Shown piece after piece: positions 11,374 to 39,004 of a stretch of DNA of 39,004 nt. The notes under the pieces were generated by a model, which was not told the DNA's origin, ran no database searches, and saw nothing but the letters and a program-made list of their open reading frames with translations. The stretch is taken from assembly GCF_017433805.1 (NCBI RefSeq), contig NZ_JAFRGN010000014.1, positions 1-39,004 on the forward strand, written 5' to 3'. Position 1 is the stretch's first letter. Every line of letters begins with the position of its first letter. The position numbers and the translations under genes were made by a program. This DNA comes from Butyrivibrio sp. Its GTDB lineage: Bacteria > Bacillota > Clostridia > Lachnospirales > Lachnospiraceae.

Positions 11374-12783
11374 ATGAAATTTAGAAGAGTTATGGCCAGC
11401 GTACTGGCAGGAATGATGACTCTGTCACTTGTAGCATGTGGAAGTGATGGAAGTGCATCAGCAGGCACAGAGACAGAGCAGACAGCAGATGCTAAGACTA
11501 ATACAGAATCAGTAGGAACAAGCGGAGAGAAGCTTGTTATCTGGACTCTGGCAAAAGACCTTCAGACCTTCGCTGAGAAGTATGTAGAGGATCACGAGGT
11601 TCAGATCGAGACTGTTGTAATCGAACCAGCTGACTATGTTACAAAGGTTCAGACAGCTCTTAACGGCGGACAGACAACACCAGATATCATCGTAGGTGAG
11701 CCTCAGATGCTTGAGGATTTCTATGATGCAGGATATTTTGAGGACCTTAACCAGGCACCTTATAACGCTCAGGATTATGCTGATCAGATCGTTGATTATG
11801 TATGGGAAGTAGGACAGGATGCAGAAGGCATTCAGAGAGCTATTTCTTATCAGATCACACCAGCTGGTATCTACTACAGAAGAGATATCGCACAGGAAGT
11901 ATTCGGTACAGATGATCCAGCAGAAGTTGGTAAGCTCTTTGCTGACTATCCAACAATACTCAGCACAGCACAGAAGCTTAAAGAAAATGGCTATCGTATC
12001 TTTGCTTCAGACGCAGAGATGGGCTATTTCTCAGGAGATACAGCATGGGTAGTAAATGACAAGCTTAACCTTGACCAGGCTCGTCTTGACTACATGGATC
12101 TTGTTTGTGACCTCTATCAGAACGACCTTACAGCTTATGCTAACCAGTGGTCAACACCTTGGTATCAGGCTATGGCAGGAGAGGTTCCTATCCTTACAGC
12201 AGAAGTTCAGAGCTATGCTGATGATTCAGTTAACGTATGGGATGCAGAAGCATTCGCAGAGGCAACCAAGGATCTTGCAACAACACAGGTATTTGCATTT
12301 GGACTTCCAAGCTGGGGAGTACTTACTCTGAGAGACAATGTTGGTGAAACATCAGGCAAATGGGGAGTATGTTCAGGACCAGCTTACGGTTTTGGAGGTG
12401 GCACTTTCATCGGCATTTCAGCGATGTCAGAGCACAAGGACCTGGCTTGGGACTTCCTTAAGTGGGTAACACTTGATGAGAACACTGCAGAGTGGTGGAT
12501 CGAGAAATCAGAAGGCGACACAGTTTCACTTGTATCTGTTCTTGAGAAGCACAAAGACGACGAGAACGCAGTATATGGCGGACAGCACCTCTACAGCTTC
12601 TGGCAGGAGCAGGCAGCAGGCATCGACTACTCCAAGGTTACACGTTACGACAAGATCGTTAACGATGCATGGGGAGCAGCTTGCACAGCAGTTAAGACAG
12701 GCGAAGCTGACAAGGAAACAGCTATAAACGAATTCTACGATGTAGTTGAATCTACATACCCAGAAATTCAGATTGAGCGCTAA
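11374..12783 (+). CDS. Carbohydrate ABC transporter substrate-binding lipoprotein (family 1)
   Basis: 469 residues with a GGAGGGAGG ribosome-binding site. The signal peptide ends in lipobox LVAC with Cys22, followed by a Ser/Thr/Glu-rich linker. Residues about 55 on (KLVIWTL, then TALNGGQTTPDIIVGEPQ) match the family 1 extracellular binding protein fold that captures oligosaccharides for CUT1 importers. DLAWDFLKWVTLDENTAEWW near 355-375 is the usual helix in the second lobe. Two permease genes follow. The short intergenic hairpin after it may raise its mRNA level over the permeases. Substrate is not evident; nearby GH43 and esterase genes make a plant oligosaccharide possible. Confidence 0.92.
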   Translation: MKFRRVMASVLAGMMTLSLVACGSDGSASAGTETEQTADAKTNTESVGTSGEKLVIWTLAKDLQTFAEKYVEDHEVQIETVVIEPADYVTKVQTALNGGQTTPDIIVGEPQMLEDFYDAGYFEDLNQAPYNAQDYADQIVDYVWEVGQDAEGIQRAISYQITPAGIYYRRDIAQEVFGTDDPAEVGKLFADYPTILSTAQKLKENGYRIFASDAEMGYFSGDTAWVVNDKLNLDQARLDYMDLVCDLYQNDLTAYANQWSTPWYQAMAGEVPILTAEVQSYADDSVNVWDAEAFAEATKDLATTQVFAFGLPSWGVLTLRDNVGETSGKWGVCSGPAYGFGGGTFIGISAMSEHKDLAWDFLKWVTLDENTAEWWIEKSEGDTVSLVSVLEKHKDDENAVYGGQHLYSFWQEQAAGIDYSKVTRYDKIVNDAWGAACTAVKTGEADKETAINEFYDVVESTYPEIQIER

Positions 12784-12805
12784 TCCTTAAAACTTAATCT
12801 ATACA

Positions 12806-12842
12806 TTCGGGGCACTGCTGTGGTTGGCGGCAGCGCCCCGAA
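12806..12842 (+). other. Intercistronic GC-rich hairpin
   Basis: TTCGGGGC (12806-12813) pairs with GCCCCGAA (12835-12842), with a further CTGC/GCAG pairing inside. No T-tract follows. Position between binding-protein and permease genes fits a processing or 3'-stability element that lets the binding protein be made in excess. Confidence 0.6.
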
Positions 12843-12891
12843 AATTACTATGAATGGAGAGAGTTAGTAGTAATTTACTTGGGAGGAAAAT

Positions 12892-13809
12892 ATGGCAGTA
12901 GCAAAAAAGAGAATGAAGAATAGGAACAACGCAGCATATCTGTTTGTGCTTCCTTTCATCATTGTTTTCCTGATCTTTAGTGTTTATCCTGTTTTCAGGA
13001 CACTTTTTCTTAGCTTTACCACTTATAAAGGCTATGGCGAACCAGAGTTTACAGGCCTTGCCAATTATATAAGGGTGGTAAAAGACAAATTCTTCTGGCG
13101 TTCACTTTATAACACAGTCAAAATGTGGTCTCTTAACATCGTTCTTCAGCTGGGACTGGCATTTCTTCTGACAATTGTATTTAGTGACATCAAGTACAAG
13201 ATTCGCGGACTTGCGATCTTCCGTGCAGTGTATTATCTGCCTAACTTAATAGCAGCAACATCAGTTGCTTTCCTGTTTAAGACACTTCTTGACTGGAAAT
13301 ACGGAACAGTTAACCAGATCCTTCTTGCATCAGGCCTTGTATCAGAGCAGATCAACTGGCTAGGACAGAAGTCCACAGCCTGGGCAGTAGTATCTGTGAT
13401 TCAGGCGTGGATGTGGTTTGGTAACTCATTCATTATTCTCATGGCCGGTGTTCAGGGTATTCCAAACGACTACTTTGAAGCCGCAGCTATAGACGGAGCT
13501 GGCAGATGGAAGGTATTTGGAAGCATCACACTTCCTCTTTTACGCCCAATCCTTCTGTATGTGGCTGTCACATCACTTATTGGTGGACTGCAGCTCTTTG
13601 ACCTGCCATTCCTTATTAACGGAGTAGCGGGAGCATCAACTGCCGGAGAGCCTGGAGGAACACTTCAGACGGTGGTTATGTACCTTTATAAATTTGGATT
13701 TGAAACTCGTCAGGTGGGCTTTGCATCTGCAATTGCCTATACCCTGTTCTTCATAATACTTTTTATTTCCGTAATGGAGTTCAAATTCCTGGGTGGAAAG
13801 GAGGACTAA
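12892..13809 (+). CDS. Sugar ABC transporter permease, MalF/UgpA-like
   Basis: 305 residues, ribosome-binding site GGGAGGAA. Six hydrophobic segments are visible, the first starting AAYLFVLPFIIVFLIFSVYP. The cytoplasmic EAA loop that contacts the ATPase reads EAAAIDGAGRWKVFGSITLP at about residues 197-216. It forms the heterodimeric membrane channel with the next gene product, with only 3 nt between the two. No ATP-binding subunit is encoded here; CUT1 systems of Firmicutes commonly share one encoded elsewhere. Confidence 0.95.
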   Translation: MAVAKKRMKNRNNAAYLFVLPFIIVFLIFSVYPVFRTLFLSFTTYKGYGEPEFTGLANYIRVVKDKFFWRSLYNTVKMWSLNIVLQLGLAFLLTIVFSDIKYKIRGLAIFRAVYYLPNLIAATSVAFLFKTLLDWKYGTVNQILLASGLVSEQINWLGQKSTAWAVVSVIQAWMWFGNSFIILMAGVQGIPNDYFEAAAIDGAGRWKVFGSITLPLLRPILLYVAVTSLIGGLQLFDLPFLINGVAGASTAGEPGGTLQTVVMYLYKFGFETRQVGFASAIAYTLFFIILFISVMEFKFLGGKED

Positions 13810-13812
13810 CAG

Positions 13813-14640
13813 ATGGCTACCAAGATTAAAAAGACAATTCTATATGTACTACTGATCGCACTGGCCCTGATGTGTATTCTTCCCTTCTGGCTCATGATCG
13901 TAAACTCAACAAGATCCGGTGTTGAAATAACACATTCATTTTCCTTCCTGCCGGGCAAGAGCCTTCGGGATAACTGGGTAGTGTTATTTGATTATGTAAA
14001 TCTTTTCAGGGGCCTGTTTAACAGTGTTAAAGTGGCTCTCCCGGCAACTCTCCTGACAGCGTACTTCTCAGCCATCACAGCCTTTGGAATGGCAATGTAT
14101 GAGTGGAAGGGCAATAACCTTCTGTTCAGGATAATAGTTATCTTCATGATGATACCAGGCCAGCTCTCGCTCATTGGTTTTTACAACCTGTGCCAGAAGC
14201 TTCACCTGATTGACTCCTACATACCACTTATAATTCCTGCCATGGCGTCACCTGGAATAGTGTTCTTCTTAAGGCAGTACGTCAAGGCAACACTTTCCAA
14301 GGCGCTTATGGAAGCTGCCAGAATCGATGGTGCTTCAGAGATACATATTTTCCACAGAATTGTACTTACGATCATGGCACCTGGTATTGCAACTATGTCA
14401 ATCGGAGCCTTCATTGGTAACTGGAACTCCTATCTGGTACCATTGATCCTCCTCAATACTCCTAAAAAGATGACGCTGCCAGTAATGATCTCTACTTTGA
14501 ACGCAGCCACAGATCTTCAAAAGAACCAGGGTGCTATCTACCTTGGTGTAGCGATTTCGGTTGTACCGATAATCATCGTGTTCTGCTTCTGCTCCAAGTA
14601 CATTATCAGCAGTATTTCAGCAGGCAGTGTAAAAGAATAA
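13813..14640 (+). CDS. Sugar ABC transporter permease, MalG/UgpE-like
   Basis: 275 residues, AAAGGAGG 8 nt before the start and inside the end of the previous gene. Six membrane segments, opening ILYVLLIALALMCILPFWL, and the EAA loop EAARIDGASEIHIFHRIVL at about 167-185. It is the second half of the import channel. A GC-rich hairpin (GGCGG/CCGCC at 14651-14670) follows the stop, without a clear T-tract. Confidence 0.95.
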   Translation: MATKIKKTILYVLLIALALMCILPFWLMIVNSTRSGVEITHSFSFLPGKSLRDNWVVLFDYVNLFRGLFNSVKVALPATLLTAYFSAITAFGMAMYEWKGNNLLFRIIVIFMMIPGQLSLIGFYNLCQKLHLIDSYIPLIIPAMASPGIVFFLRQYVKATLSKALMEAARIDGASEIHIFHRIVLTIMAPGIATMSIGAFIGNWNSYLVPLILLNTPKKMTLPVMISTLNAATDLQKNQGAIYLGVAISVVPIIIVFCFCSKYIISSISAGSVKE

Positions 14641-14674
14641 ACAACAATTTGGCGGCCCCTCGGGACCGCCTACT

Positions 14675-14701
14675 TGCATTAATAAAATCTAATGCTATTA
14701 T
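14675..14701 (+). promoter_or_regulatory. Promoter of the second binding protein and two-component genes
   Basis: TTGCAT (14675-14680) lies 15 nt before TATTAT (14696-14701), which has the extended -10 TGC just before it. GCATTA/TAATGC (14676-14681 and 14690-14695) also form an inverted repeat within the spacer and could be an operator. This gives the sensor genes a unit separate from the transporter. Confidence 0.5.
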
Positions 14702-14758
14702 AGGTGGATAAGAATTAATAGTTTCCAAAATAATGGTACACAATCTGAGGAATTATAG

Positions 14759-16369
14759 ATGAAAAGACTTCTCGAAAAGAGCCTTGTAATCCTTGCTGCA
14801 GCTGCATTTGCGTTAGCGGGCTGTGCAGGAGCGACTGATACTGACAAAGGTTCTGAGAAAACTGAAAATAATAGCGTAGTTTCCAAAGGGGACGATGTAA
14901 CTCTTGACTGGTACATTAATTTTTCCTGGTTTAACACCAAGTGGGGAGATAATGCTGTATCAAAAGAAATTACAGATAAAACCGGAGTTAACATCAATTT
15001 CATTTCACCTCTTGGAAATGAGGAAGAAAAGCTCAATTCCCTTATAGCATCTGGTTCACTTCCTGACCTCATCACCCTTGGCTGGTGGGAGCCTCAGGTC
15101 AACGAGATGATTCAGGGGGATATGGTCTATGCTTTGAACGAGCTTGCTGATGAGTACGATCCTTACTTTTACGAGGTTACTGATCCACAGGCCATTTCCT
15201 GGTACACCCAGGCAGATGGAAATGTTTACGGATATCCTTGTTCTTCCGTAACACCTGATGATGTAACCAGTAACGACAACATCGGCTCCAATCAGACCTT
15301 CCTTGTGAGAAAAGACATATATGAGGCCATAGGAAGTCCCGATATGACTACCATAGAGGGTTTTGAAACAGCAGTTAAAAAAGCCAGCGAGATGTTTCCT
15401 GAAATAGATGGTAAGCCCCTTATACCTGTGGGCGCCCACATCTTTGATGATACCGGTAATGTCTCTTTTGACCTATATCTACAAAATTTCCTGGCCGTTC
15501 CTTATGAAAAGGATGGGGAACTATATGACAGGGATACTGATCCTGAGTACATCGAATGGCTCAAGATGTTCAGAAGACTTGGAGAGCAGGGATATCTATC
15601 AACGGATCTTTTCATAGATCAGAGAGTACAGATGGAGGAGAAGATCGCGGAAGGCAGGTATTTTTGTATGCTCTATCAGTACACAGATATGTCAGCTCAG
15701 CAGAAGGCACTCTATTCCAAGGATCCAGACAGCATCTATATAGCTGTTGACGGTCCCAAGAACAGAAACAGGGATGACCATGTCCTTCCCACCAACACAG
15801 TAAGTGGATGGACCATAACCATGGTGAGTAAGAACTGTAAGCACCCTGACAGGGCTATAGAGTTCATTGACTATATGCTATCAGAGGAAGGCCAGAAGAC
15901 GGTTTATCTTGGCATTGAGGGAGTCACCTACGATGTGGTTGATGGAAAAGAAGTGGTGAAGCCTGAAGTCCAGCACCTTCTTGATACAGACAGAGGACAA
16001 TATGACGCATTGTACGGCGCAGATGATGCCTATTGGATGTTCCAGGATAATGTAATGCAGCTCAAATGGAAACAGGAAACAACAGGGCCTACAGATCAGC
16101 TTGAGAAGTGGACTTACCCCTACGCCACCTACACCGGAGTCTATGACATAATCTTGCCGGCAGACACTGAGGATGCCTACACTAACGCGAGGATAGAGAA
16201 GCTCTGGAGCGAGACACTTCAGAACCTCCTGTTATCCAGAAGCGAAGAAGAATTTGATGAGATATTGGATAAGTTCATAGCGGACAGAAACGCCATGGGC
16301 TTTAAGCAATTGCAGGAAAAGAGATACAAGTATGTCGAAAGCGCAAAAGAAAAGCTTGGCATTAAGTAA
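14759..16369 (+). CDS. Extracellular solute-binding lipoprotein, LplA-like
   Basis: 536 residues. Signal peptide with lipobox ALAGC, Cys22. The mature start (VTLDWYINFSWF, then KLNSLIASGSLPDLITLG at about 97-114) is characteristic of the long LplA-type family 1 binding proteins; at more than 500 residues it is longer than the typical MalE class. It has no permease of its own here. Its 3' end overlaps the histidine kinase gene by 38 nt, so binding protein, kinase and regulator are probably made together. It may deliver sugar to the upstream permeases or present ligand to the kinase sensor domain; the sequence cannot decide. Confidence 0.9.
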   Translation: MKRLLEKSLVILAAAAFALAGCAGATDTDKGSEKTENNSVVSKGDDVTLDWYINFSWFNTKWGDNAVSKEITDKTGVNINFISPLGNEEEKLNSLIASGSLPDLITLGWWEPQVNEMIQGDMVYALNELADEYDPYFYEVTDPQAISWYTQADGNVYGYPCSSVTPDDVTSNDNIGSNQTFLVRKDIYEAIGSPDMTTIEGFETAVKKASEMFPEIDGKPLIPVGAHIFDDTGNVSFDLYLQNFLAVPYEKDGELYDRDTDPEYIEWLKMFRRLGEQGYLSTDLFIDQRVQMEEKIAEGRYFCMLYQYTDMSAQQKALYSKDPDSIYIAVDGPKNRNRDDHVLPTNTVSGWTITMVSKNCKHPDRAIEFIDYMLSEEGQKTVYLGIEGVTYDVVDGKEVVKPEVQHLLDTDRGQYDALYGADDAYWMFQDNVMQLKWKQETTGPTDQLEKWTYPYATYTGVYDIILPADTEDAYTNARIEKLWSETLQNLLLSRSEEEFDEILDKFIADRNAMGFKQLQEKRYKYVESAKEKLGIK

Positions 16370-18164
16370 AGGCTTAAAACTAAATACCAGACTTACAGGC
16401 GTTGTGCTCATCTTTGTAATGCTGCCAATAGCTATCCTTGGGGGAATTGTCTTTTACAATATGGAGCAGTCTTCCATAAGAGAGAACGTAAGCTTCATGC
16501 AGTCAACTATGGAAAGACGAAGGGACTCTATCTCCAACAATATTGATTCCATCAATATGACAACCCAGTTCTTTCTGACTAATGACACTATGAACAACGT
16601 GCTCATATGTGCGGCCCAGGGCGGGCAGTACAGCACAAGGCAGCTCATTGATATCTACAGAAATGATGTAGCGGCTCTTGAAAGGCTTATCAACAACAAC
16701 CCGGTTCTTCATGGAGTTCGCTACTATGCCATAAATGACAACGTTCAGGAGATGATGCCAGTACTGTTTAACCACAACCGTATGAACAGGCAGAAGTGGG
16801 CAGGAATGGCAAGTACAGGGGGATGGTTCTTTGACTATCAGGACAATCTTTTTGCTGGCTATGAGGACTCACCGATGATTGGACTCATTACTCCTGTGAC
16901 TGACAGACAGCACGGACGGATTGGCGTTATCGAAGCCAACATGACTATGCGGACCATGTTCCCGTCAATGTATGAGGACATAAAGGGAGAGAGCAGCTGC
17001 TTTGTAACAGATGATGGCAGGATAATCTACGGAAGTAATGAAGATGACAGCATAGCACAGATAGCCACAGAGCTTGCAGACACCCTTAAGTCATCCCAGG
17101 ACATAGCAGATGCTTCCAGGATCATCACCAGTTATAAGAGGGAAAAGAAAAGCGTTATTTCCGGAATGTATATCCCAGAGCTTCTGGGAACACTGGTTTC
17201 CGTTGATGATATTTCAGAGAGCCTTAGTGAAGTCTATAAGCTTAGGACCAATTACATCATTGGCATGCTGATAATCCTCGCAGGAATGGCCTTTGTAATT
17301 GACGTTGTAGTTAACCACGTACTCAAAAAGTTCTATGAGGTTTTATCAACCATCAGAAAGGTCAGAAGTGGCGATCTTGATGTGAGGACTATTGAGAGTG
17401 GCAGAGACGATGAAATGGGTGAGCTCGCCCATCAGGTCAACAGGATGCTTGATAACATTCAGGAGCTCATGAAGGAAAATATCAGCAGAGAAGTGCTGGT
17501 CAAAGATTCACAGATCAGAGCCCTTCAGAATCAGATAAATGCCCACTTCATTTACAACGTCCTTGAGTCCATCAAAATGATGGCGGAGATAAAAGAGGAC
17601 TATGATATCTCGGACGCTATTACGAGCCTTGGTAAGCTCCTTAGATACAGCATGAAATGGACTTCTGATACGGTAATGGTATCTGAGGAAATAGAGTACA
17701 TCAAGAACTACATGGCTCTTATAAATCTTAGATTTGACTACGAGATATATCTTTCTCTGAATGTGCCGGATGAGATCATGCAGCAAAGAATCCCCAAGAT
17801 GTCGCTGCAGCCCATTATCGAAAATGCCATTATTCACGGCATAGAAGAGCTTGCTGATGACACCACGATTTACGTCAAGGGAATACCTGAGGGCGACTAT
17901 TGCACAATTGAGATAACTGATAATGGCCGAGGCATGAACGCAGAGGAGCTTGAGACGCTTCGGAAAAAGATATCCGGAGAGATCAAGACAGAAGGCGGCT
18001 CCAGCAATGGAATCGGACTTAAAAATGTACAGGACAGAATCCGCATGGAATATGGTGATAAGTGCGGAATTGATGTAGCAACTATGGAAGGGTGCTACAC
18101 CAAGGTTTACGTGAGAATCCCTATGAAAAGAGGTTTGACGCATGCAGACAGTACTGGTAGTTGA
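16332..18164 (+). CDS. YesM-type sensor histidine kinase
   Basis: 610 residues. TM1 at about 20-42, an extracytoplasmic sensor domain to about 305 of the double-Cache type, TM2 at about 309-330, HAMP (VRSGDLDVRTIESGRDDEMGEL region), then the His_kinase domain with phospho-acceptor His405 in QINAHFIYNVLESIK, and an HATPase with N box IIENAIIHGIE, DNGRGMN and GIGLKNVQDRIR. LytS/YesM-class kinases sense extracellular carbohydrates and phosphorylate YesN-type regulators. The start overlaps the binding-protein gene by 38 nt, and the end overlaps the regulator by 23 nt, a strong sign of translational coupling. Confidence 0.95.
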   Translation: MSKAQKKSLALSKGLKLNTRLTGVVLIFVMLPIAILGGIVFYNMEQSSIRENVSFMQSTMERRRDSISNNIDSINMTTQFFLTNDTMNNVLICAAQGGQYSTRQLIDIYRNDVAALERLINNNPVLHGVRYYAINDNVQEMMPVLFNHNRMNRQKWAGMASTGGWFFDYQDNLFAGYEDSPMIGLITPVTDRQHGRIGVIEANMTMRTMFPSMYEDIKGESSCFVTDDGRIIYGSNEDDSIAQIATELADTLKSSQDIADASRIITSYKREKKSVISGMYIPELLGTLVSVDDISESLSEVYKLRTNYIIGMLIILAGMAFVIDVVVNHVLKKFYEVLSTIRKVRSGDLDVRTIESGRDDEMGELAHQVNRMLDNIQELMKENISREVLVKDSQIRALQNQINAHFIYNVLESIKMMAEIKEDYDISDAITSLGKLLRYSMKWTSDTVMVSEEIEYIKNYMALINLRFDYEIYLSLNVPDEIMQQRIPKMSLQPIIENAIIHGIEELADDTTIYVKGIPEGDYCTIEITDNGRGMNAEELETLRKKISGEIKTEGGSSNGIGLKNVQDRIRMEYGDKCGIDVATMEGCYTKVYVRIPMKRGLTHADSTGS

Positions 18165-19593
18165 GGATGAAAAGTTAATAAGACAGGGCATTTCCGCCAT
18201 GATAAAAAGATGCGGAGTTCCTGTAGGTGAAGTTATAGAGTGTGCCAATGGTCTTAAGGCCATGGAGGTGCTAAGAGAGCGGGCTATAGATGTTATGTTC
18301 ACTGACATCAGAATGCCCAAGATGAACGGCATAGAGCTGGTCAAAGAAATGCAGAGCCTTGAGAACATGCCTATTACCATAGCTGTAAGTGGCTATGATG
18401 ATTTCTCCTACGCTGTAGAGATGATGAGACAGGGCGTAAGGGAGTATATTCTTAAGCCTGTTGAGAGAGATAAGCTCCGCGAAGTAATGGAGAAGCTGGA
18501 AAAAGAGATCAGCCAGAAAAACGTTACAGCAGAGAAAACTGAAAAGCTCGGCAAGCAGTTCCTTAAGTACATCTTAACTGATGGAAATGAGGAGCATGAA
18601 GACCTTGATATCATCGGCAAAAGGATAAAGGCTGATGTGGGAGAGGAGTATCTTGTTCTTGTTACTAGTAAGGAAGACGATGTCCAGAAAGAACTGGTTA
18701 CTATTAATTCCATAGCTGAGATAGACGAAAATGAAGTTTTTATCATTGGAAAAGACAAAGTGGCAGAGATAAGATCACGTCTATCTGAGGTCGATGAATA
18801 TATATCAAGCGCTGGAATAAGTGACAGCTACACTGATATCGGCGATCTTAAAAAGGCTTATCTTCAGGCCAAAAATAGAAGGCAGAGAGCTTTCTTTAGA
18901 GAGGAACTGGTCTTGTCAGATGAGGATACCAAGGTTCCGGAAGCACTTCTTGAAAATGGCAAAAAGCTATGTGACAAGGTAGCAGTCAGTGCCAGAGTAC
19001 AGCTCACCGGCACAGACAGGGCAGAAACCATAGAAAAAGAATGGAATTCCTTTTTTACGGCAGCAGCCAGAAGGCAGATAAGTCCTGAGGACTTTGCCAA
19101 GGCCATGGCTCTTTTTGTTCAGGAATATGAGAGTGTATATAAGAAATCTCTTCAGGATAAGCTGGGAAATCCATTTATTTACAGCTCTTTATCCGAGTAC
19201 AAAGAAATGCTTTTTGATACTGTTTTTGAGGAAAATGGAAGGCTCCTTGACAGGGCTGGAGAGGGCCAGGCAGATAAGAAAATGTTCAAGGCCGTTAACT
19301 ACATCCGGGAGAACTTTAACACAGATATAAACATGGCTGTGGTTTCTAACTATGTTTCAATGAACTATTCTCTGTTCTCAACCGCCTTCAAGAACTATAC
19401 AGGTATCAACTTTGTATCTTACGTAAGGGGACTTAGGATTGAAGAGGCCAAGAGGCTTCTAAGAGAAACAACCATGAGAGTTAATGAGATTGGACAAAGG
19501 GTTGGATACGATAATGACAAGCATTTCATGAAAAATTTCAAGGAATCCGTTGGAGTATCTCCCAGTGAATACCGCAGAAATACAGCAATCTGA
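18142..19593 (+). CDS. YesN-type response regulator with AraC DNA-binding domain
   Basis: 483 residues. REC domain at 1-120 with acidic pocket VEDE, phospho-acceptor Asp55 in MFTDIRMPKMNG, switch residue in VSGYDDF and Lys in ILKPVERDK. A central region of about 250 residues follows with no recognised domain. The C-terminal 100 residues are an AraC-type double helix-turn-helix, including VSNYVSMNYSLFSTAFK and IGQRVGYDNDKHFMKNFK. Partner of the overlapping kinase gene; the likely target is the neighbouring transporter promoter, which is an inference. ATCTGAT/ATCAGAT repeats at the stop (19588-19619) could form a weak hairpin. Confidence 0.95.
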   Translation: MQTVLVVEDEKLIRQGISAMIKRCGVPVGEVIECANGLKAMEVLRERAIDVMFTDIRMPKMNGIELVKEMQSLENMPITIAVSGYDDFSYAVEMMRQGVREYILKPVERDKLREVMEKLEKEISQKNVTAEKTEKLGKQFLKYILTDGNEEHEDLDIIGKRIKADVGEEYLVLVTSKEDDVQKELVTINSIAEIDENEVFIIGKDKVAEIRSRLSEVDEYISSAGISDSYTDIGDLKKAYLQAKNRRQRAFFREELVLSDEDTKVPEALLENGKKLCDKVAVSARVQLTGTDRAETIEKEWNSFFTAAARRQISPEDFAKAMALFVQEYESVYKKSLQDKLGNPFIYSSLSEYKEMLFDTVFEENGRLLDRAGEGQADKKMFKAVNYIRENFNTDINMAVVSNYVSMNYSLFSTAFKNYTGINFVSYVRGLRIEEAKRLLRETTMRVNEIGQRVGYDNDKHFMKNFKESVGVSPSEYRRNTAI

Positions 19594-29502: not shown

Positions 29503-29557
29503 CTTTGGTTTTTAACATTGTTTTTAGTTTTGCTTAATAAATTGGTGGGTGTTCACA

Positions 29558-29566
29558 TGTTATAAT
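29558..29566 (+). promoter_or_regulatory. Extended -10 promoter of the sensor-EAL gene
   Basis: TGTTATAAT (29558-29566) is an exact extended -10; no good -35 is seen. Predicted start is about 35 nt before the ATG at 29609. Confidence 0.5.
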
Positions 29567-29608
29567 TTATACGTTAAAGTGTATACTTTTGTGCACGAGT
29601 GGCGAAAA

Positions 29609-32569
29609 ATGAAGAAAGTCAGAGATGGTATTTGTAACAGAATATCGATAACTACGGCCAGAAGGGCACTAGTCCTTCTGCTTTGCACTGCCATTTTGTG
29701 CGTTTTAAACTTTGCGATTTTTGTGCCGGATAAAGGTACAACCATGGCTGAGGCCAGGGAAAACAAGGTGGTAAAGGTTGGTTGGTATGAATCAGCCTAT
29801 TGTTACACCGACAGATTTGGCAGAAAAACAGGAATGGCCTATGAATATCAGCAGAAGATCGCAACCTACACGGGCTGGACTTACGAATATGTGGAAGGAA
29901 CATGGCCAGAGCTTTTGCAAAAGCTTGAAAGAGGAGAGATAGATCTTTTAAGTGATGTTTCATATACTCCTGAAAGAGCAACCATGATGCATTTTTCATC
30001 GCTCCCAATGGGAACAGAGTCCTACTACATATTTGTTAAAGCTGGCAATGCATATATGTCTTTGGACAACATAAGCTCTTTTGAAGGCAAAAAATTCCTT
30101 GTGGATAAAGGAAGCATCATGGAAAATCTTGTCCAGGAATGGGCAGCAGATAACGGAATCGAAATAGAGATATTGGAGAATGTCGCAAGTTCACCGGATA
30201 TTTGTATCGGATGGCTTAACCATGGCGATGTGGATGCCTATGTGACCATGGATACCTACGGTAAGAGTGATATCTGTTCTCCTGTTTGCAAGATTGGCTC
30301 TTCGGATTTCTTTTTCGGAATTAACAAGGACAGAATCGATCTGGTAAAAGAGATCAATCACGCCATGACTGAGATCCAGAACGAGGATCCTTTCTATAAC
30401 CAGAGAATGTATCAAAAGCATATATGGTCTGTTAATATCGACTCTTTCCTGACAGATGAGGAGCTTGAGTGGGTAGCAAACAAGGGCACAATTCGAGTTG
30501 GCTATAGAGATAATTACATGCCTTTCTGCACTGATGAAAATGGTGAGCTGTCCGGGGCACTTAAAGAGTGCCTTGAAAAAGTCTCTGGCAGCATGAAAAA
30601 TGGCGATATTGTCTTTGAGGCAATCCCTTATGCAACTACAGAAGAATCGCTCGTTGCTCTTAATAACGGGGAAGTTGATGTGGTATTCCCAGTTAGCATG
30701 AGCCCGTATGACAGCGAGCATGCAGGTGTTTTTGTAACTGATCCGATAATGAATACTGTTATTTATGCTGTCGTTAAGCCTGGCAGTAATAGTATTTTTG
30801 ATAGAAGAACCAACACCGTTGCGCTTCTGGCTGGAAATGTCAACTTTGATAATTTTATAAAAGATTATTTCCCGGACTGGATGATCATACGATATCCAAC
30901 ACTGGATGAGGTATATGCAGCAGTTGACAGGGGCAATGCTGATTGCGCAATGGTAAATGGAAATAGAATCAACAAGACAGAAGAGCTTCGTAAGAAGTAT
31001 GGCCTGTCTATTCTCTCAACAGGAGAGGATATAGGATTTTCTTTTGCTGTAAGAAGAGACAACGTGCTTCTATACGCTATTATGAATGATCTTGTTAATC
31101 ACGTTCCTCAGGCATCTGCCGATGCTTTCCTTTCCAAGTATTCAGGAAGTGACGAGAAGGTTTCTTTTACTGACTATATTCAGGATAACCTTCCATCAGC
31201 CATAGCAATGCTGGCGATAATCTCTTCGATTATACTATTCCTTACTGTCCTCAAGATGAGATCAGACAGGAAAGCACTTGACCAGCAAAGACTTATTGCT
31301 GCAACAGAGCACGATCCGCTTACAGGGCTGTATACCAGAAACTTCTTCTTTGAATATGCCAACAAGCTTTATGCAGAAAAGCAGGAAATGAGGCTGGATG
31401 CAATTGTTATGAATATCGAGCAGTTTCATGTAATAAATGCTCTATACGGCTGGAATTTCGGAGATGTTGTCTTGAAGGCCCTTGGTGATGAGATAGCTCT
31501 TTTTGTAAAAGAGAACAAAGGAATTGCCTGCAGATCAACTGCGGACAGATTCGACATATACTCCCAGACTGACGGTAATTATCAGAAGCTGTTCGACAGA
31601 TTCCAGGAAAGACTTGATAAGTGTGCACCAGATGTTAATATCAGACTTCGCATGGGTGTCATGCCTTGGCAGAAGGATATTGAACCTGTTCAGCTCTTTG
31701 ACAGAGCTCGTACGGCTTGTGGTATGGTTCGCGGTGGACTTCATAACAGAGTTGTTGTGTTCAGTGAGGAGATGAGAGAAAGAGAGATCATTGAGAACCG
31801 ACTTATCAGTGATATTAAGCGAGCAGTAGATAACCATGAGTTTATTGTTTATTACCAGCCTAAGTTTAATATTCAGGCTGACCCTCCACAGCTGTATAGC
31901 GCAGAGGCTCTTGTCCGCTGGGAGCACCCGGAGCTTGGAATGGTGCCACCAGGAGAGTTCATTTCTGTTTTCGAAAAGAGTGGACACATTGGAATAGTTG
32001 ATAAGTATGTCTGGGCAGAAACGGCCAGGCAGATAGCCGACTGGAAAAAGAAATATGGCGTAAACCTGCCTGTTTCTGTCAACCTGTCAAGAATTGATAT
32101 CTTCGATCCTGATATAGTTGACACTATTGAAAGGTTGGTTAAGGATAATGGAATCGATAGAGAGGACCTTCATTTGGAGGTTACAGAGTCAGCATATACT
32201 GAGAACGAAGATCTTGTTATTGGCGTGATCAAGGTCTTCATGGATAAAGGCTATCATATTGAGATGGATGATTTTGGAACCGGCTACTCATCTCTTAATA
32301 TGCTGTCCCATATGCCAATTGATGTTCTTAAGCTGGATAGAAGCTTTATCAAAGATATTTCAGGAAATGAAGTCGACAAAAAGAATATCCGAATGGTGGA
32401 GCTGATTCTGGATATCGCCAAGAGTCTGAAGCTTATGGTTGTTGCTGAAGGAGTAGAAAATGAAACTCAGCTGCAGTTCTTAAAAGCACACGGATGCGAG
32501 CTTATACAGGGATATTATTTCTCGCCTCCTCTGTCTGCAGCCGAATTCGCAGAAAAGTATTTTCAGTGA
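29609..32569 (+). CDS. Membrane sensor with two SBP_bac_3 domains, degenerate GGDEF and EAL phosphodiesterase domain
   Basis: 986 residues. TM1 at about 17-40; two periplasmic-binding-protein type 3 modules outside (KVVKVGWYESAYCY from about 53, then TIRVGYRDNYMPFC from about 303); TM2 at about 530-550. The GGDEF domain begins EHDPLTGLYTRNFF, but the signature is T644-A-D-R-F648, so no diguanylate cyclase activity is expected. The EAL domain is complete: AEALVRW (Glu766), VNLSRIDIF, LEVTESAYTE, MDDFGTGYSSLN, LKLDRSFI, VAEGVEN and QGYYFSPP. It likely degrades c-di-GMP in response to an amino-acid-like ligand. Weak GAGTGG site before the chosen start; an upstream GTG is possible. Confidence 0.92.
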   Translation: MKKVRDGICNRISITTARRALVLLLCTAILCVLNFAIFVPDKGTTMAEARENKVVKVGWYESAYCYTDRFGRKTGMAYEYQQKIATYTGWTYEYVEGTWPELLQKLERGEIDLLSDVSYTPERATMMHFSSLPMGTESYYIFVKAGNAYMSLDNISSFEGKKFLVDKGSIMENLVQEWAADNGIEIEILENVASSPDICIGWLNHGDVDAYVTMDTYGKSDICSPVCKIGSSDFFFGINKDRIDLVKEINHAMTEIQNEDPFYNQRMYQKHIWSVNIDSFLTDEELEWVANKGTIRVGYRDNYMPFCTDENGELSGALKECLEKVSGSMKNGDIVFEAIPYATTEESLVALNNGEVDVVFPVSMSPYDSEHAGVFVTDPIMNTVIYAVVKPGSNSIFDRRTNTVALLAGNVNFDNFIKDYFPDWMIIRYPTLDEVYAAVDRGNADCAMVNGNRINKTEELRKKYGLSILSTGEDIGFSFAVRRDNVLLYAIMNDLVNHVPQASADAFLSKYSGSDEKVSFTDYIQDNLPSAIAMLAIISSIILFLTVLKMRSDRKALDQQRLIAATEHDPLTGLYTRNFFFEYANKLYAEKQEMRLDAIVMNIEQFHVINALYGWNFGDVVLKALGDEIALFVKENKGIACRSTADRFDIYSQTDGNYQKLFDRFQERLDKCAPDVNIRLRMGVMPWQKDIEPVQLFDRARTACGMVRGGLHNRVVVFSEEMREREIIENRLISDIKRAVDNHEFIVYYQPKFNIQADPPQLYSAEALVRWEHPELGMVPPGEFISVFEKSGHIGIVDKYVWAETARQIADWKKKYGVNLPVSVNLSRIDIFDPDIVDTIERLVKDNGIDREDLHLEVTESAYTENEDLVIGVIKVFMDKGYHIEMDDFGTGYSSLNMLSHMPIDVLKLDRSFIKDISGNEVDKKNIRMVELILDIAKSLKLMVVAEGVENETQLQFLKAHGCELIQGYYFSPPLSAAEFAEKYFQ

Positions 32570-35277: not shown

Positions 35278-35312
35278 AAAGCCCTTGATTTCAGTATGAT
35301 CAGGGGCTTTTT
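35278..35312 (+). terminator. Rho-independent terminator of ptb-buk
   Basis: AAAGCCCTTGAT (35278-35289) pairs with ATCAGGGGCTTT (35299-35310) through one T-G pair, then more T. A TATAAT at 35317-35322 just beyond is a candidate -10 for the next gene. Confidence 0.85.
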
Positions 35313-35377: not shown

Positions 35378-36952
35378 ATGAACACATTTGAGAGACTTGA
35401 TTTAATTATTGATAAAGGGACTTTTGTTCCTTATGAAGATGATATCGATAGCGGCAGGGTATATGTTGATGAGGCATATCAGGCCAAGATTGAGCGCCAC
35501 CGGGCGAGATATGGATTAAAGGAAGCTGTTCTTACAGGAAGAGCAGACATATGCGGGCATAATGTTGCGATAGGCATTATGGATGCCCGCTTTTTGCGCG
35601 CAAGTATGGGCTATTATGTCGGGGAAAAGATAACACGGCTTTTTGAGCATGCTACGAAAGAAAGGTTAAGTGTTATTTTGTTTTGTGCTTCGGGAGGAGC
35701 AAGAGTTCAGGAAGGGATCATATCTCTTTTGCAGATGCAGAAGACGTCTCAGGCTTGTGCAAGGCATGGAAAAGAGGGACTTTTGTACATATCGGTTCTG
35801 ACGAATCCGACTTTTGGAGGTGTTACAGCCAGTTTTGCTACCCTTGCAGATATTGTAATTGCTGAAGAAAACGCAATGATAGGCTTTGCCGGTCAGAGGG
35901 TTATAGAGCAGACAACAGGAGAAAAGCTTCCAGAGGGCTTTCAGACAGCTCATTTTCAGAAAGAACAGGGACTTGTTGATGAAGTAGTTTCTGATAAAGA
36001 TATGAAAGAGTACATAGCAAGGCTCCTGACAGCCTTTGACAGTACTAGGGGAAAGAAATCCGGAGAACCAGTGGGCGGTGCACTCAATAATTCTAATGAA
36101 GATACCATTAAAGAAGCCATCCAAGAGAATCCTCAGAAGGCTATAACTCGTACTAAGGCAGATGATGCAAAAGAGGCATGGAAGAATGTCAGGCTAGCTA
36201 GGAAGATTACAAGACCTACTACGCTTGAATACATAAATATATTGTTTGATGATTTCACACTCCTTCATGGTGACAGGATCTCCGGCGATGACACTGCAGT
36301 AGTAGGCGGAATTGGTTTTTTTAACGGGCGGCCTGTAATGGCAATAGGTCAACAGAAGGGCAAAAAAGATATCAAAGAGGCTATATACAGAAACTGGGGA
36401 ATGGTATCTCCGGCAGGGCATCACAAGGCCATGAGACTTATGAGGCTTGCAGAGAAGTTTAGGATTCCGCTGGTGTTTTTTGTGGATACTATGGGTGCTG
36501 CGTGCGGCAAGGAAGCAGAAGAAATGGGACAGGCAGATACGATAGCCAGAATGCTTGCAGTAGCATCTGAGCTTAAGACCCTTACCCTTTCTATAGTTGT
36601 TGGAGAAGCAGGAAGCGGTGGAGCACTGGCTTTTTCTGTTGCCAATGAAGTTTGGATGTTAGAGCACTCTGTTTATTCAGTCATAACACCTGAAGGGTAT
36701 GCCAGCATTGTCTGGAAAGATATTGAGAAAAAGAGTGAAGCTGCAGATGCTATGAAAATGTGTGCTTCGCAGCTATACGATAATGAAGTTATAGACAGGA
36801 TAATTCCAGAGCCAGAGCCGGTTACGGCAGATAATCTTCCCAAAATCTGCAAGCAGTTATCCAAAGAGCTTGAAAACTTTTTTGATAAATACAGTAATAA
36901 ATCTATAGAAGAAATTGTGGAGAGAAGATATGAGAGATTCAGGAGGTTCTAA
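35378..36952 (+). CDS. Fused acetyl-CoA carboxylase carboxyltransferase (AccD-AccA), zinc finger missing
   Basis: 524 residues. The first half is AccD-like from the post-zinc-finger FERLDLIIDKGTFVPYED, through FCASGGARVQEG and NPTFGGVTASFA; the usual N-terminal four-cysteine zinc ribbon is absent. A linker at about 230-265 leads to an AccA-like half: RPTTLEYINILFDDFTLLHGDR, KKDIKEAIYRNWGMVSPAGH, FVDTMGAACGKEAEE and GEAGSGGALAF. It should make malonyl-CoA with a biotin carboxylase and BCCP from elsewhere. It leads a tight operon with thioesterase, acyltransferase and AMP-ligase genes, so it is likely a cluster-dedicated malonyl-CoA supplier, not the housekeeping enzyme. A housekeeping role cannot be excluded without the genome. 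Confidence 0.9.
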   Translation: MNTFERLDLIIDKGTFVPYEDDIDSGRVYVDEAYQAKIERHRARYGLKEAVLTGRADICGHNVAIGIMDARFLRASMGYYVGEKITRLFEHATKERLSVILFCASGGARVQEGIISLLQMQKTSQACARHGKEGLLYISVLTNPTFGGVTASFATLADIVIAEENAMIGFAGQRVIEQTTGEKLPEGFQTAHFQKEQGLVDEVVSDKDMKEYIARLLTAFDSTRGKKSGEPVGGALNNSNEDTIKEAIQENPQKAITRTKADDAKEAWKNVRLARKITRPTTLEYINILFDDFTLLHGDRISGDDTAVVGGIGFFNGRPVMAIGQQKGKKDIKEAIYRNWGMVSPAGHHKAMRLMRLAEKFRIPLVFFVDTMGAACGKEAEEMGQADTIARMLAVASELKTLTLSIVVGEAGSGGALAFSVANEVWMLEHSVYSVITPEGYASIVWKDIEKKSEAADAMKMCASQLYDNEVIDRIIPEPEPVTADNLPKICKQLSKELENFFDKYSNKSIEEIVERRYERFRRF

Positions 36953-37619
36953 GAAGACAGCACTTGTCCTGGTTCCTCATGCAGGAGGAGATAAGCTTGC
37001 CTATACAAGGCTCATAAAAGGACTTTCCGGTAAGAGAGATGTCTTTTTCTATGAACTTCCAGGACATGGGACAAGGGCAGGAGAAAGCTTTGCAGAAAGC
37101 TACCAGGATATTCTGCGGGAGCTTGTTGAATTCATTAAAGATAAAACGTCAGACTATGATAGTTATATTATGTGCGGCGTGAGCATGGGAGCCTATCTGT
37201 GTGATAATGCCTACAGAAAGCTGTTATCAGGCAGTTGTAAACTGCCAAGTCACGTAATATATGCGGCAGTAGACCCATCTAAGACTTCTGGAATGCTGAG
37301 TAAAGAAGACATTATGCAAAAGAGTGCTGACCCTGAGCAACTTGGCTTAAATAACGCTTATAGCATATATCTCAAGGATATGCTTGAAAAAGATCTGGAT
37401 ATTTTTTTCAGGGAAGGCGCTGTATTTGGGACAACTCTTAAGTGTCCATTATCTTTTTTTATGGGTAGAGATGACAGACTTCTTGGAAAAGTGGACTATG
37501 ACTGGGGGCTTTTGGCACCTAAAGGATACAGGGAGTATTTATTTGAGGGACCGCATTTATTTATGACCAGTAATGCGAATGTTATAACAACCATAAACAG
37601 GATTTGTGACCATATATAA
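36930..37619 (+). CDS. Type II thioesterase (GrsT/TycF-like)
   Basis: 229 residues from ATG 36930, with GGAG 7 nt before; it overlaps the carboxyltransferase gene by 23 nt. Alpha/beta hydrolase with LVPHAGGDKLAYTRLIKGL at 14-32, FYELPGHGTRAGE, the nucleophile Ser85 in CGVSMGAYL, Asp181 in MGRDDRLL and His209 in EGPHLFM. These stand-alone thioesterases clear wrongly loaded carrier proteins in polyketide and non-ribosomal peptide assembly lines. Its presence is one of the strongest signs that a biosynthetic cluster begins here. Confidence 0.92.
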   Translation: MRDSGGSKKTALVLVPHAGGDKLAYTRLIKGLSGKRDVFFYELPGHGTRAGESFAESYQDILRELVEFIKDKTSDYDSYIMCGVSMGAYLCDNAYRKLLSGSCKLPSHVIYAAVDPSKTSGMLSKEDIMQKSADPEQLGLNNAYSIYLKDMLEKDLDIFFREGAVFGTTLKCPLSFFMGRDDRLLGKVDYDWGLLAPKGYREYLFEGPHLFMTSNANVITTINRICDHI

Positions 37620-37649
37620 CCTTATACAGGAAAATAGGAGACATAGGCT

Positions 37650-38519
37650 ATGGGTAAAAAGACGTATGTTTTTCCCGGTCAGGGAAAGAAATTTGGAAGG
37701 GCAGAAATTGAGCTCCTTAAAAGAAATGAAAGGATTGAAAAGCTTGCAGAAGACATACTGGGCTATTCAGTTATTGACAAGATAGAAAAAGAGACGGATG
37801 AGGTTAAAAAGACAGAGTTTGCTCAGCCAATCGGGTATATAACATCATTCCTGTATTATCAGGAAATGATAGCCAGAAAAGGGAAAACACCTGATTTTGT
37901 CATTGGCCACAGCCTTGGAGAGCTGGGGGCTCTGACAGCCGGCGGGTATATAGATTTTGAAAAAGGAATAGACCTTGTCAGGAAAAGAGGCCAGATAATG
38001 TCTGGTGCAGATGGCGGCGTGATGACTGCTGTTATTGGCAGAAACTATGACAGGATAATGACTGCAATTTCTGAGAATATATCAGAAGAAATTGATATTG
38101 CAAATTACAATTCACCTTTTCAGGTTGTGATTTCAGGACCCCAAAAGGCGATTGCAGAGGCAGAAGAGAAGATAGCAGCTACTGGTCTTAAAGTTGTGAG
38201 GCTAAAGGTAAGCGGGGCTTTTCATTCAAGGTATATGCAGGATTCCTGTGACAGCTTTAGAAAAGAGCTGGATAAGTTCTCTTTTGGTAAAGAAAACGAT
38301 ACTTTGGTAATGTCTTCAGTTTCTCCGGAGCTTTATCAGGAAAATGTACCTGCTATCCTGGGAAAACAAATAGTAAAACCTGTTCGCTGGATAGAGAGCA
38401 TAGAGAAACTGATCGATATGGACTGCTACGACTTTGTCCAGGTGGACGGCGGACATTCCATGATCGACATGATAGATGATATTAAATTTGCAAGAGCATT
38501 GAAAGGGAGACAGAGATGA
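37650..38519 (+). CDS. Stand-alone malonyl-CoA:ACP acyltransferase (trans-AT type)
   Basis: 289 residues, AGGAG ribosome-binding site. FabD fold: FPGQGKK at 8-14, nucleophile Ser88 in GHSLGELGALTAGG, Arg113 in the RKRGQIM segment and His192 in SGAFHSRYM. FabD-type enzymes move malonyl units onto carrier proteins. The position next to a type II thioesterase and an AMP-ligase suggests a discrete acyltransferase serving PKS modules in trans, not the fatty-acid FabD. The fatty-acid neighbours (fabH, fabK, acpP) are not seen. Its stop overlaps the next start. Confidence 0.92.
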   Translation: MGKKTYVFPGQGKKFGRAEIELLKRNERIEKLAEDILGYSVIDKIEKETDEVKKTEFAQPIGYITSFLYYQEMIARKGKTPDFVIGHSLGELGALTAGGYIDFEKGIDLVRKRGQIMSGADGGVMTAVIGRNYDRIMTAISENISEEIDIANYNSPFQVVISGPQKAIAEAEEKIAATGLKVVRLKVSGAFHSRYMQDSCDSFRKELDKFSFGKENDTLVMSSVSPELYQENVPAILGKQIVKPVRWIESIEKLIDMDCYDFVQVDGGHSMIDMIDDIKFARALKGRQR

Positions 38520-39004
38520 CGGTAAGAGAGTTACTGATAAATAGAGCAAAAGAAGATAAGCAATATAACCTGCGACTTGTGGAAAATGACATAAACATGA
38601 GCTATAGAGAACTCTTGTGTCATGCATCTGTGGTAGCAAGTAGATACGCAGATGAAGGAGTTCAAAAAGGTGACCTTATTCTGATACAGGCAGTTGAGCC
38701 GATCTATACTTTCATGGGATTTTGGGGAGCAATCCTTATAGGCGCTATACCAGCTCTTTATCCTATTGGTGCTGACATTAAGCAGCATAGTCCTGCGATT
38801 ACATCTCTTTGTAAACAGTTTGATATTAAGTACATTTATTCAGATATGATGCTTGGAGAAGCACTCTCTAAGGCAATGAAAGAGAAGATCATAATCCCTT
38901 CCGAATATGCAAGCCTTGCAGATAAAACTCCTGATTATGAAGCTTTTGAAAACATTGCCATTTCTGAAGATGATACTGCTGTACTTCAGTTTTCATCAGG
39001 CTCA
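38516..39004 (+). CDS. AMP-binding adenylating enzyme, start of a probable PKS/NRPS protein (partial)
   Basis: The frame is open from ATG 38516 (AAAGGGAGA 5 nt before, overlapping the previous stop as ATGA) to the window end, giving 163 residues without a stop. The sequence is the N-terminal part of an acyl/amino-acid AMP ligase: INMSYRELLCHASVVASRY at about 37-55, GDLILIQAVEPIYTFMGFWG, AIPALYPIG and the final TAVLQFSSGS, the beginning of core motif A3 (usually followed by TGxPKG). The order and spacing fit a fatty-acyl-AMP-ligase-type or loading-module adenylation domain better than a CoA ligase, but only the first third is in view. Confidence 0.88.
   Translation, partial: MTVRELLINRAKEDKQYNLRLVENDINMSYRELLCHASVVASRYADEGVQKGDLILIQAVEPIYTFMGFWGAILIGAIPALYPIGADIKQHSPAITSLCKQFDIKYIYSDMMLGEALSKAMKEKIIIPSEYASLADKTPDYEAFENIAISEDDTAVLQFSSGS

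Follow-up and report, generated by a model that had tools for sequence, protein, structure and literature searches.

A four-gene operon at the end of a Butyrivibrio contig is a complete, self-contained cluster. We hold with fair confidence that it specifies a single-module polyketide synthase (PKS) with its acyltransferase in trans and a terminal alpha-oxoamine synthase (AOS), set up for RedL-like alkylpyrroline synthesis. The stretch of DNA analysed, here called the window, is the whole of contig C7 (39,004 nt), and its end falls inside the fourth gene.

Operon structure and chromosomal context

The following features were assigned.

35278..35310, + strand: terminator-like hairpin between buk and the operon, marking where the presumed insertion begins on the left (terminator scan: 1 found, 0.1 expected)
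35378..36952, + strand: gene 1, AccD-AccA fusion (beta half, then alpha), 524 aa (Pfam, NCBIfam)
36930..37619, + strand: gene 2, thioesterase (alpha/beta hydrolase, GVSMG), 229 aa from ATG (Pfam Thioesterase, 5.1e-10)
37650..38519, + strand: gene 3, stand-alone FabD-like acyltransferase, 289 aa (Pfam Acyl_transf_1, 1.2e-23)
38516..39004, + strand: gene 4, first 163 residues of the PKS, open at the contig end (Pfam AMP-binding, 1e-8 on the fragment)
L006:49-4854, contig C20: full gene 4 protein (P0001), 1601 aa (domain searches)
P0001 residues 1-540: fatty acyl-AMP ligase (FAAL) domain
P0001 residues 547-612: ACP 1 (PP-binding match)
P0001 residues 639-1054: ketosynthase (KS)
P0001 residues ~1085-1166: ACP 2
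P0001 residues ~1206-1595: PLP-dependent AOS

The spacings between the four genes are -23, +30 and -4 nt. An earlier note on this DNA had described four genes with overlaps or gaps of about 30 nt at 35378-39004, and open reading frames, Pfam matches and motifs agree with that description. The complete gene 4 is supplied by another contig of this assembly, C20, which overlaps the window end with 96% identity over 537 nt, the final 129 nt being identical. Because 18 of the 489 coding nucleotides differ from the window within the gene 4 overlap, the C20 copy, which is the only whole one, may be a sister-strain allele. Gene 4 is followed on C20 by secA and then prfB. Directly upstream of the operon lie genes for phosphate butyryltransferase and butyrate kinase (buk), whose scores exceed the family cut-offs. 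They accord with the butyrate-forming host suggested by the earlier note, as do the names of the five named relatives with the operon, four labelled Butyrivibrio and the fifth Lachnospiraceae bacterium.

In three relatives without the operon (G006, G064 and G009) the site is empty and secA comes directly after buk. This supports the join of C7 and C20 and indicates that the operon is an insertion of about 8 kb between buk and secA. Chance adjacency of the two contigs is ruled out by these flanks and is also countered by the identical gene order that runs through in other genomes. On the buk side, similarity to the unoccupied G006 site stops at about window position 35293, within the hairpin; as judged by eye, a hairpin-like sequence also stands at that point in G006.

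Genes 1 to 3

The gene 1 protein matches Pfam ACCA (E 2.1e-99) and Carboxyl_trans (7.9e-35). One NCBIfam accA subfamily model was passed (303.6 bits, cut-off 300), and residues 1-220 match accD below its cut-off (249.5 versus 317.45 bits). Ordinary AccD has an N-terminal zinc ribbon. This element seems to be missing from gene 1, since the accD model aligns only from model position 57 and CxxC is absent from the first 80 residues of the protein in all six operons. The role of gene 1 is presumably the supply of malonyl-CoA. Contig C6 carries a second accA-type match, interrupted by two stops and therefore possibly not intact, and a second fabD-type match, a stand-alone acyltransferase. Since these further matches sit elsewhere in the genome, the window copies look dedicated to the operon.

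Gene 2 was judged to encode a type II thioesterase from its stand-alone position in a PKS operon. Gene 3 scores below the NCBIfam fabD cut-off (223.2 versus 260.9 bits). The catalytic residues previously claimed for these proteins were recovered for the most part: the GxSxG serine motif (GVSMG, GDSLG or GDSMG) is found in 6/6 thioesterases, and GHSLGE and GAFHS, which we take to be malonyl-type motifs, in 6/6 acyltransferases, but the GPHLFM stretch around the presumed histidine of the window thioesterase is found in only three of the six.

Domain organisation of the gene 4 protein

The AMP-ligase start recognised in the window is genuine (the AMP-binding match covers residues 22-399 of P0001) but belongs to the N-terminal domain of a PKS and not to a separate ligase. 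Acyl_transf_1, DH, ER and KR domains were absent from P0001 in the Pfam search. The residues Cys800, His935 and His976 of the KS, presumably a catalytic-type set, and both carrier serines are invariant in the six proteins. The same is true of Lys1446, His1338, Asp1411, His1414 and Arg1570 of the AOS, which were located by alignment to serine palmitoyltransferase and KBL; we assume that Lys1446 is the PLP lysine and that the His, Asp and Arg residues are conserved family residues. Inspection of the AOS by eye revealed no active-site residue that discriminates between amino acids. The genome also encodes a 260-aa member of the phosphopantetheinyl transferase family.

By sequence comparison the ligase domain appears to resemble FAALs more than CoA ligases. 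The highest-scoring PDB rows, at 190-194 bits, carry the names polyketide synthase, McyG and saframycin synthetase B, compared with 110-177 bits for rows named acyl-CoA synthase, FadD23 or FadD28, which we count as FAALs, and 90 bits for 4-coumarate-CoA ligase. About 19 residues near 322-340, presumably the FAAL-type insertion, occur also in the top PDB chain and are missing from McyG. NCBIfam, however, ranks a CoA ligase subfamily first (298 bits, cut-off of 572 missed) and a fatty acyl-AMP ligase subfamily second (277 bits, cut-off 600). The best PDB matches of the KS were a mixture, the cis-AT types CurL and Pks13 ranking above AT-less PKSs.

The layout is trans-AT by gene structure, a single module without AT accompanied by a discrete AT gene, and in this structural sense only the trans-AT design read from the stand-alone acyltransferase is upheld. 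We infer that the discrete acyltransferase serves the gene 4 module. The KS and two carriers inside gene 4 bear out the polyketide-type logic, with malonyl supply and thioesterase, that had been proposed from the window. Extension to the right, as the earlier note had suggested, yielded these KS and ACP domains but no KR in gene 4; an ordinary ligase with no carrier or ketosynthase within about 20 kb, the outcome that would have spoken against the proposal, is not what follows, both being inside gene 4 itself. The remaining ketosynthase-family matches in the genome are only frames of 414 and 429 residues on other contigs.

Distribution in related genomes

The operon is present with conserved gene order in 6 of 79 same-genus genomes, the source genome included, so that the association of the four genes is not due to chance. 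Its flanks vary between loci: the genes that border it in the window or on C20 do not recur next to the operon in the five relatives. Downstream sequence is visible in four of the five other loci; the contig of G063 ends at the operon. A fifth common gene is absent across the six loci, so no RedK-type reductase is linked to the operon.

The species-genome scan consisted of two short FAAL patterns and detects close relatives alone. In the family scan (E <= 1e-100), for which the best two candidates at most were scored per genome, 6 genomes besides the source matched among 397, in each case through KS or FAAL-ACP-KS parts alone; the limit of E 1e-100 is almost out of reach for a match confined to the AOS. 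The phylum scan (E <= 1e-70) matched 145 of 398 genomes, the largest non-source frame among the matches listed having 809 aa, and the class scan (E <= 1e-72) 112 of 391, with a largest frame of 760 aa; in both, the best three candidates at most were scored per genome. Four of 72,556 plasmid records cover at least 80% of the KS-ACP-AOS part, and none covers 80% of full P0001.

Selection and relationships of the AOS

Substitution rates point to purifying selection on the operon. Between G000 and its five relatives dN is 0.046-0.071 for the AOS and 0.126-0.198 for FAAL and KS, and the low AOS value points to strong constraint. Synonymous rates were saturated and incomputable in 26 of 45 pair-by-domain cells. 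The AOS part may have been exchanged between strains: in the pairs G022-G032 and G032-G063 its dS is roughly half the value for FAAL and KS, in the near-identical pair G022-G063 it has diverged more than they have (dN 0.009 versus 0.005 and 0.007; dS 0.16 versus 0.06), and the AOS closest to that of G000 is from G043 (92.3%), which is not the closest in FAAL and KS.

The AOS of P0001 grouped with carrier- or PKS-linked AOSs (100/100); 20 further AOS rows and an AOS from Streptomyces fell outside this group. The nearest relatives inspected are located beside or within reducing iterative PKSs of the SgaAB type, and for this reason the group fails to single out a pyrroline product.

Proposed pathway

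What was observed comprises the four genes, the order of the domains, residues of catalytic type, and the unity and conservation of the operon; from these we infer the chemical steps, substrates and product as follows. The FAAL would activate a free fatty acid and load it onto carrier 1. AccDA, together with biotin subunits encoded elsewhere in the genome, would make malonyl-CoA, from which the stand-alone acyltransferase would place malonyl onto carrier 2. The KS would then join acyl and malonyl to a beta-ketoacyl chain held on carrier 2, and the beta-keto group would be kept because the operon lacks a ketoreductase, although fatty-acid enzymes may reduce it in trans. The AOS would condense the beta-ketoacyl thioester with an amino acid, presumably glycine as in RedL (alanine and serine are possible too), with loss of CO2 and release of a 1-amino-2,4-dione. 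Closure of the amine on the far ketone would give a 4-keto-2-alkylpyrroline, a tautomer of a 5-alkyl-3-hydroxypyrrole. The thioesterase would clear stalled carriers. More tentatively, we suggest that this pyrroline, or its alanine or serine analogue, might itself be the end product; the operon would then be a minimal trans-AT RedL-like machine, an 8-kb cassette at several sites within the genus, making an undescribed class of Butyrivibrio alkyl-pyrrolinone lipids or signals.

Comparison with known systems and alternative readings

RedL has the domain order A-ACP-KS-AT-ACP-AOS. P0001 is likened to it by this order and not by sequence: an acyl-activating domain and ACP, then KS, a second ACP and a C-terminal AOS correspond. 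RedL belongs to the 2-undecylpyrrole branch of undecylprodiginine synthesis in Streptomyces and, as outlined in PMC11188435 and PMC12654105, extends carrier-bound dodecanoic acid once with malonyl on the second carrier and condenses it with glycine in a PLP-mediated step to give 4-keto-2-undecylpyrroline. Unlike RedL, P0001 has no acyltransferase domain, and a separate acyltransferase, AccDA and a thioesterase share the operon; a RedK-type reductase and a bipyrrole pathway are missing from it, and the host is an anaerobic lachnospiracean. In the bipyrrole branch of prodigiosin synthesis, PigJ/PigH (RedX/RedN) likewise combine a ketosynthase-made beta-ketothioester with amino-acid condensation, PigH carrying the thioester and joining it to serine to give hydroxybipyrrole, according to PMC6667630. 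There, however, the starter is a proline-derived pyrrole and the ketosynthase is separate, whereas FAAL, KS and AOS are fused in Butyrivibrio. A protein encoded on a Streptomyces anthocyanicus plasmid has 37% identity over 94% of the KS-ACP-AOS part and shares this domain order, but it has its AT in cis (KS-AT-ACP-AOS) and no FAAL.

The operon could instead make a sphingoid-type base, with the AOS acting like serine palmitoyltransferase as in SgaAB and any keto reduction carried out in trans by fatty-acid enzymes. In PfSgaAB of Pseudomonas fluorescens MYb115, which makes PKS-derived sphingolipids, an iterative PKS feeds SgaB, described in PMC12134224 as an AOS with serine palmitoyltransferase activity and near-exclusive use of serine; the amino-acid-joined lipid is a shared outcome, SgaB is likened to our AOS by this description, and SgaAB-like pairs or fusions are among the closest AOS relatives inspected. 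In Butyrivibrio, though, the AOS is fused, the chain comes from the FAAL and reducing domains are lacking, so P0001 is not the SgaAB-type combination of a chain-building PKS and a separate AOS gene. Gene 4 has no DH, ER or KR, the six loci share no further gene, and a finished chain loaded by the FAAL would leave KS, AccDA and acyltransferase needless for plain 3-ketosphinganine. We regard a sphingoid base as unlikely.

It is doubtful, and we think quite improbable, that the KS only hands the acyl chain on to carrier 2 and does not extend it, in which case the product would be a simple alpha-aminoketone derived from the fatty acid that was loaded. Trans-AT systems do include some non-elongating ketosynthases, and there is an ACP-AOS fusion that lacks a ketosynthase. 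In Caulobacter and relatives, too, an acyl-ACP synthetase cooperates with its own ACP and an AOS (AasR/AcpR/SPT); these are separate proteins, and no ketosynthase or malonyl extension is described for them in the abstract of PMC9386255. The complete Cys-His-His set in all six KS domains and the malonyl-supply genes fixed in the operon argue against such a relay and for the extension step of the RedL-like pathway.

With a discrete acyltransferase, a thioesterase and a ligase for starter loading lying where the contig ends, the earlier note had taken the genes for the start of a long trans-AT PKS or hybrid PKS/NRPS cluster. That reading is now highly improbable and is refuted for the contigs examined: the PKS gene ends in its AOS and secA and prfB follow, five other loci have the same four genes with other flanks (downstream visible in four), and buk adjoins secA at the empty sites.

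Significance

A literature search found no paper that joins oxoamine synthase, polyketide synthase and fatty acyl-AMP ligase, though a cluster predictor may already have flagged the locus. On the topic of polyketide and other biosynthetic gene clusters in Butyrivibrio, PMC7533575 cites Moreira et al. As given in PMC8241843, a survey of 8,160 rumen genomes found 75 PKS among 14,814 clusters. Polyketide clusters are thus rare in rumen bacteria, and the Butyrivibrio cassette is a small, complete one under apparent purifying selection. One carrier of the operon is Butyrivibrio sp. FCS014, a record without a MAG label, and the product may therefore be testable directly in culture.

By analogy, the RedL-type logic is the known part of the system; the acyltransferase in trans, the added carboxyltransferase and thioesterase and the lack of a reductase in the conserved operon would be new. 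The cassette, carried by a few strains of this gut bacterium, probably extends a fatty acid once and couples it to an amino acid; the resulting small greasy ring compound would be formed in much the way that soil Streptomyces form an intermediate of their red antibiotic. The expectation of a 30-60 kb assembly line is corrected to a compact four-gene cassette, through which an anaerobe would be seen to use a RedL-like route whose acyltransferase acts in trans.

Four-gene operon and its continuation on contig C20

Four genes of the forward strand form an operon at the place claimed by the earlier note; two of the junctions overlap, by 23 and 4 nt, and the third is a 30-nt gap.

35278-35310: terminator-like hairpin between the upstream butyrate kinase gene and the operon
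35378-36952, forward: gene 1, AccD-AccA fusion
36930-37619, forward: gene 2, thioesterase
37650-38519, forward: gene 3, stand-alone acyltransferase
38516-39004, forward: gene 4, polyketide synthase (PKS), cut by the contig end

The naming of each gene was backed by Pfam above its cut-offs; NCBIfam exceeded its cut-off only for the AccA half of gene 1. This gene has the order AccD then AccA and seems to lack the N-terminal zinc ribbon that is usual in AccD. The two genes upstream of the operon scored above cut-off as phosphate butyryltransferase and butyrate kinase (buk). Elsewhere in the window, a 1006-residue frame (29549-32569) carries SBP_bac_3 (solute-binding), GGDEF and EAL domains and is, by this domain content, a membrane-type cyclic-di-GMP sensor protein.

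The window is an entire contig (C7) of an assembly of 74 contigs and 3.45 Mb. A ketosynthase search of the same genome gave a match on contig C20 (10,079 bases), of which positions 1-537 align with the window end (38468-39004) at 96% identity. The final 129 nt of the overlap are identical, with scattered changes in the earlier part; 18 of 489 coding nucleotides differ, giving 13 synonymous and 5 non-synonymous codons. Our reading is that the contigs carry strain variants and that this metagenome-type assembly broke where its graph branched. The join is supported, without assembling, because buk directly precedes secA in relatives that lack the operon. On C20 gene 4 is complete as a single frame of 1601 residues. 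After it come secA and prfB, each exceeding its family cut-off, and a few other frames, so that the long hybrid cluster anticipated earlier was not borne out.

Domains of the gene 4 protein

Pfam domains of the gene 4 protein (residues)
22-399: AMP-binding
547-612: PP-binding, first carrier
639-1004: ketosynthase
about 1085-1166: second carrier, motif LGIDSIMM (scanned alone, 22.6 bits against a cut-off of 20.8)
1245-1588: aminotransferase I/II fold

Pfam found no acyltransferase (AT), KR, DH, ER or condensation domain in this protein. The proposed trans-AT design holds in part: there is an AT-less module with a separate acyltransferase gene.

We read the ligase domain as a fatty acyl-AMP ligase (FAAL). 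The PDB rows that score highest carry the names of assembly-line parts, the best at 194 bits against 90 bits for 4-coumarate-CoA ligase. About 19 residues near 322-340 occur in the top PDB chain as well and are absent from McyG; we take this insertion to be a FAAL-type mark. Against this reading, NCBIfam ranks a CoA ligase subfamily first, below cut-off, and a fatty acyl-AMP ligase subfamily second. The C-terminal domain resembles serine palmitoyltransferase, KBL and BioF. Its matches to 21 NCBIfam families were all below cut-off, and it therefore appears to be a distinct type within the alpha-oxoamine synthase (AOS) family.

Contig C17 encodes one phosphopantetheinyl-transferase-family protein (260 aa), Sfp-like by eye, whose only NCBIfam match was AusB, below cut-off. 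On contig C6 (408-415 kb) another accA-type match, with two internal stops, and a second acyltransferase match lie near another ketosynthase match; these are presumably fatty-acid genes.

Relatives of the AOS domain

Beyond the home genome, no AOS in a PKS-sized frame was found among the matches listed from 398 genomes of the phylum and 391 of the class. The closest AOS among them (50%) stands alone in G1209, a genome of the same class; the gene immediately before it encodes a 2180-residue PKS of the order KS-AT-DH-KR-ACP, in which an ER-like stretch scored below cut-off. Both lie at 11572-19550 of locus L088 (G1209:C2:376000-395900), preceded by a flavin-oxidoreductase-like gene (by eye). By its gene content this is an SgaAB-like pair, which may be an unrecognised maker of sphingoid-type lipids. 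A Methylobacterium AOS (48%) adjoins a 2480-residue PKS (domains by eye), and in Planktothrix an AOS domain (50%) ends a reducing PKS. In Streptomyces anthocyanicus an AOS domain (46%) ends a KS-AT-ACP-AOS protein annotated as aminotransferase only, encoded on plasmid NZ_CP109229.1 (locus L082, 15001-19839) near an MMPL family transporter gene. Genome G509 has an ACP-AOS fusion, with a close relative in G810; the fusion is a single 525-residue frame (12145-13722 of L074, G509:C3:65000-84900) and adjoins a frame that by eye is CDP-alcohol-phosphatidyltransferase-like.

In a tree of 33 AOS rows, the six Butyrivibrio domains and these six relatives (G1209, Methylobacterium, Planktothrix, S. anthocyanicus, G509, G810) fell on one side of a 100/100 branch. 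The other side held 20 further AOS rows together with a Streptomyces AOS adjoining a ketosynthase gene. The order inside the carrier- or PKS-linked group is unsure because of several long branches and a tool warning of possibly false joins.

Distribution and insertion site

The full-length gene 4 protein was present in six of 79 same-genus genomes, the home genome included, and four more gave partial matches. All five relatives have the same four genes in the same order. A scan of 84,980 species genomes, by two short FAAL patterns that could find close relatives alone, gave five loci that match almost the whole length of the protein (Butyrivibrio sp. FCS014 and the MAGs RUI079, RUI086, SIG346 and RGIG3377); it is not independent of the same-genus search, the five relatives being the same genomes in both. 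The flanks vary: buk and secA in the home genome, a tRNA-deacylase-like and an aminotransferase-like gene downstream in G022 and G032, urease-like genes upstream in G043 and a TetR-like gene nearby in G062 (all named by eye); in G063 the contig stops just past the PKS gene. In G036, another same-genus genome, a single contig (C15:4877-35249) carries five ketosynthase-region matches, in frames of 1518-2842 aa; by frame size this is a much larger PKS locus than the four-gene operon.

The AOS is the best-conserved part of the protein (88.7-92.3% identity to the home genome, against 74.4-80.1% for FAAL and 74.8-83.1% for KS). Its dN is about 2.4 to 4.3 times lower than that of FAAL and KS in pairs with the home genome; some results, such as the domain rates of the pair G022-G063, are at odds with plain constraint.

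In G006, G064 and G009, which have no match to the gene 4 protein, secA directly follows buk. Against G006 the buk-side match stops at about 35293 of the window and the secA-side match begins at about C20:4843; in the empty site itself the two lie 26 nt apart. From the match ends the insert is about 8.0 kb. The last three codons and the stop of the PKS gene (Met-Val-Glu-stop, within L006:4800-4966 on C20) coincide with DNA in the empty site of G006, so resident DNA may have supplied the end of the gene. In G012, a fourth relative, about 4.8 kb of other genes occupy this position (4408-9270 of L071, G012:C20:61000-72000), with RelA_SpoT, ApbE and a metallo-beta-lactamase-fold protein among them (Pfam, three proteins), so the spot takes up varied cargo. 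The G+C content is 41.1-41.7% in the operon and 43.0-43.1% in its surroundings, and composition is thus no mark of foreign origin.

Proposed product

By analogy with known systems, the gene 4 pathway most likely leads to a 4-keto-2-alkylpyrroline. A fatty acid would be adenylated and loaded onto the first carrier, and the acyltransferase would place malonyl on the second in trans. The ketosynthase would then form a beta-ketoacyl chain, which the AOS would couple to an amino acid in a decarboxylative condensation; the resulting 1-amino-2,4-dione would cyclise to the pyrroline. RedL is described as using the same chemistry with glycine (PMC11188435, PMC12654105), and PigH with serine (PMC6667630). 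Unlike in the SgaAB sphingolipid pathway (PMC12134224), the ligase here would import a ready-made chain; the keto group beside the carrier is expected to survive. In contrast to RedL, the acyltransferase is a separate gene and not a domain of the synthase. We class the operon as a RedL-like synthase whose acyltransferase stands apart, carried as a four-gene Butyrivibrio cassette, with the pyrroline as its predicted product.
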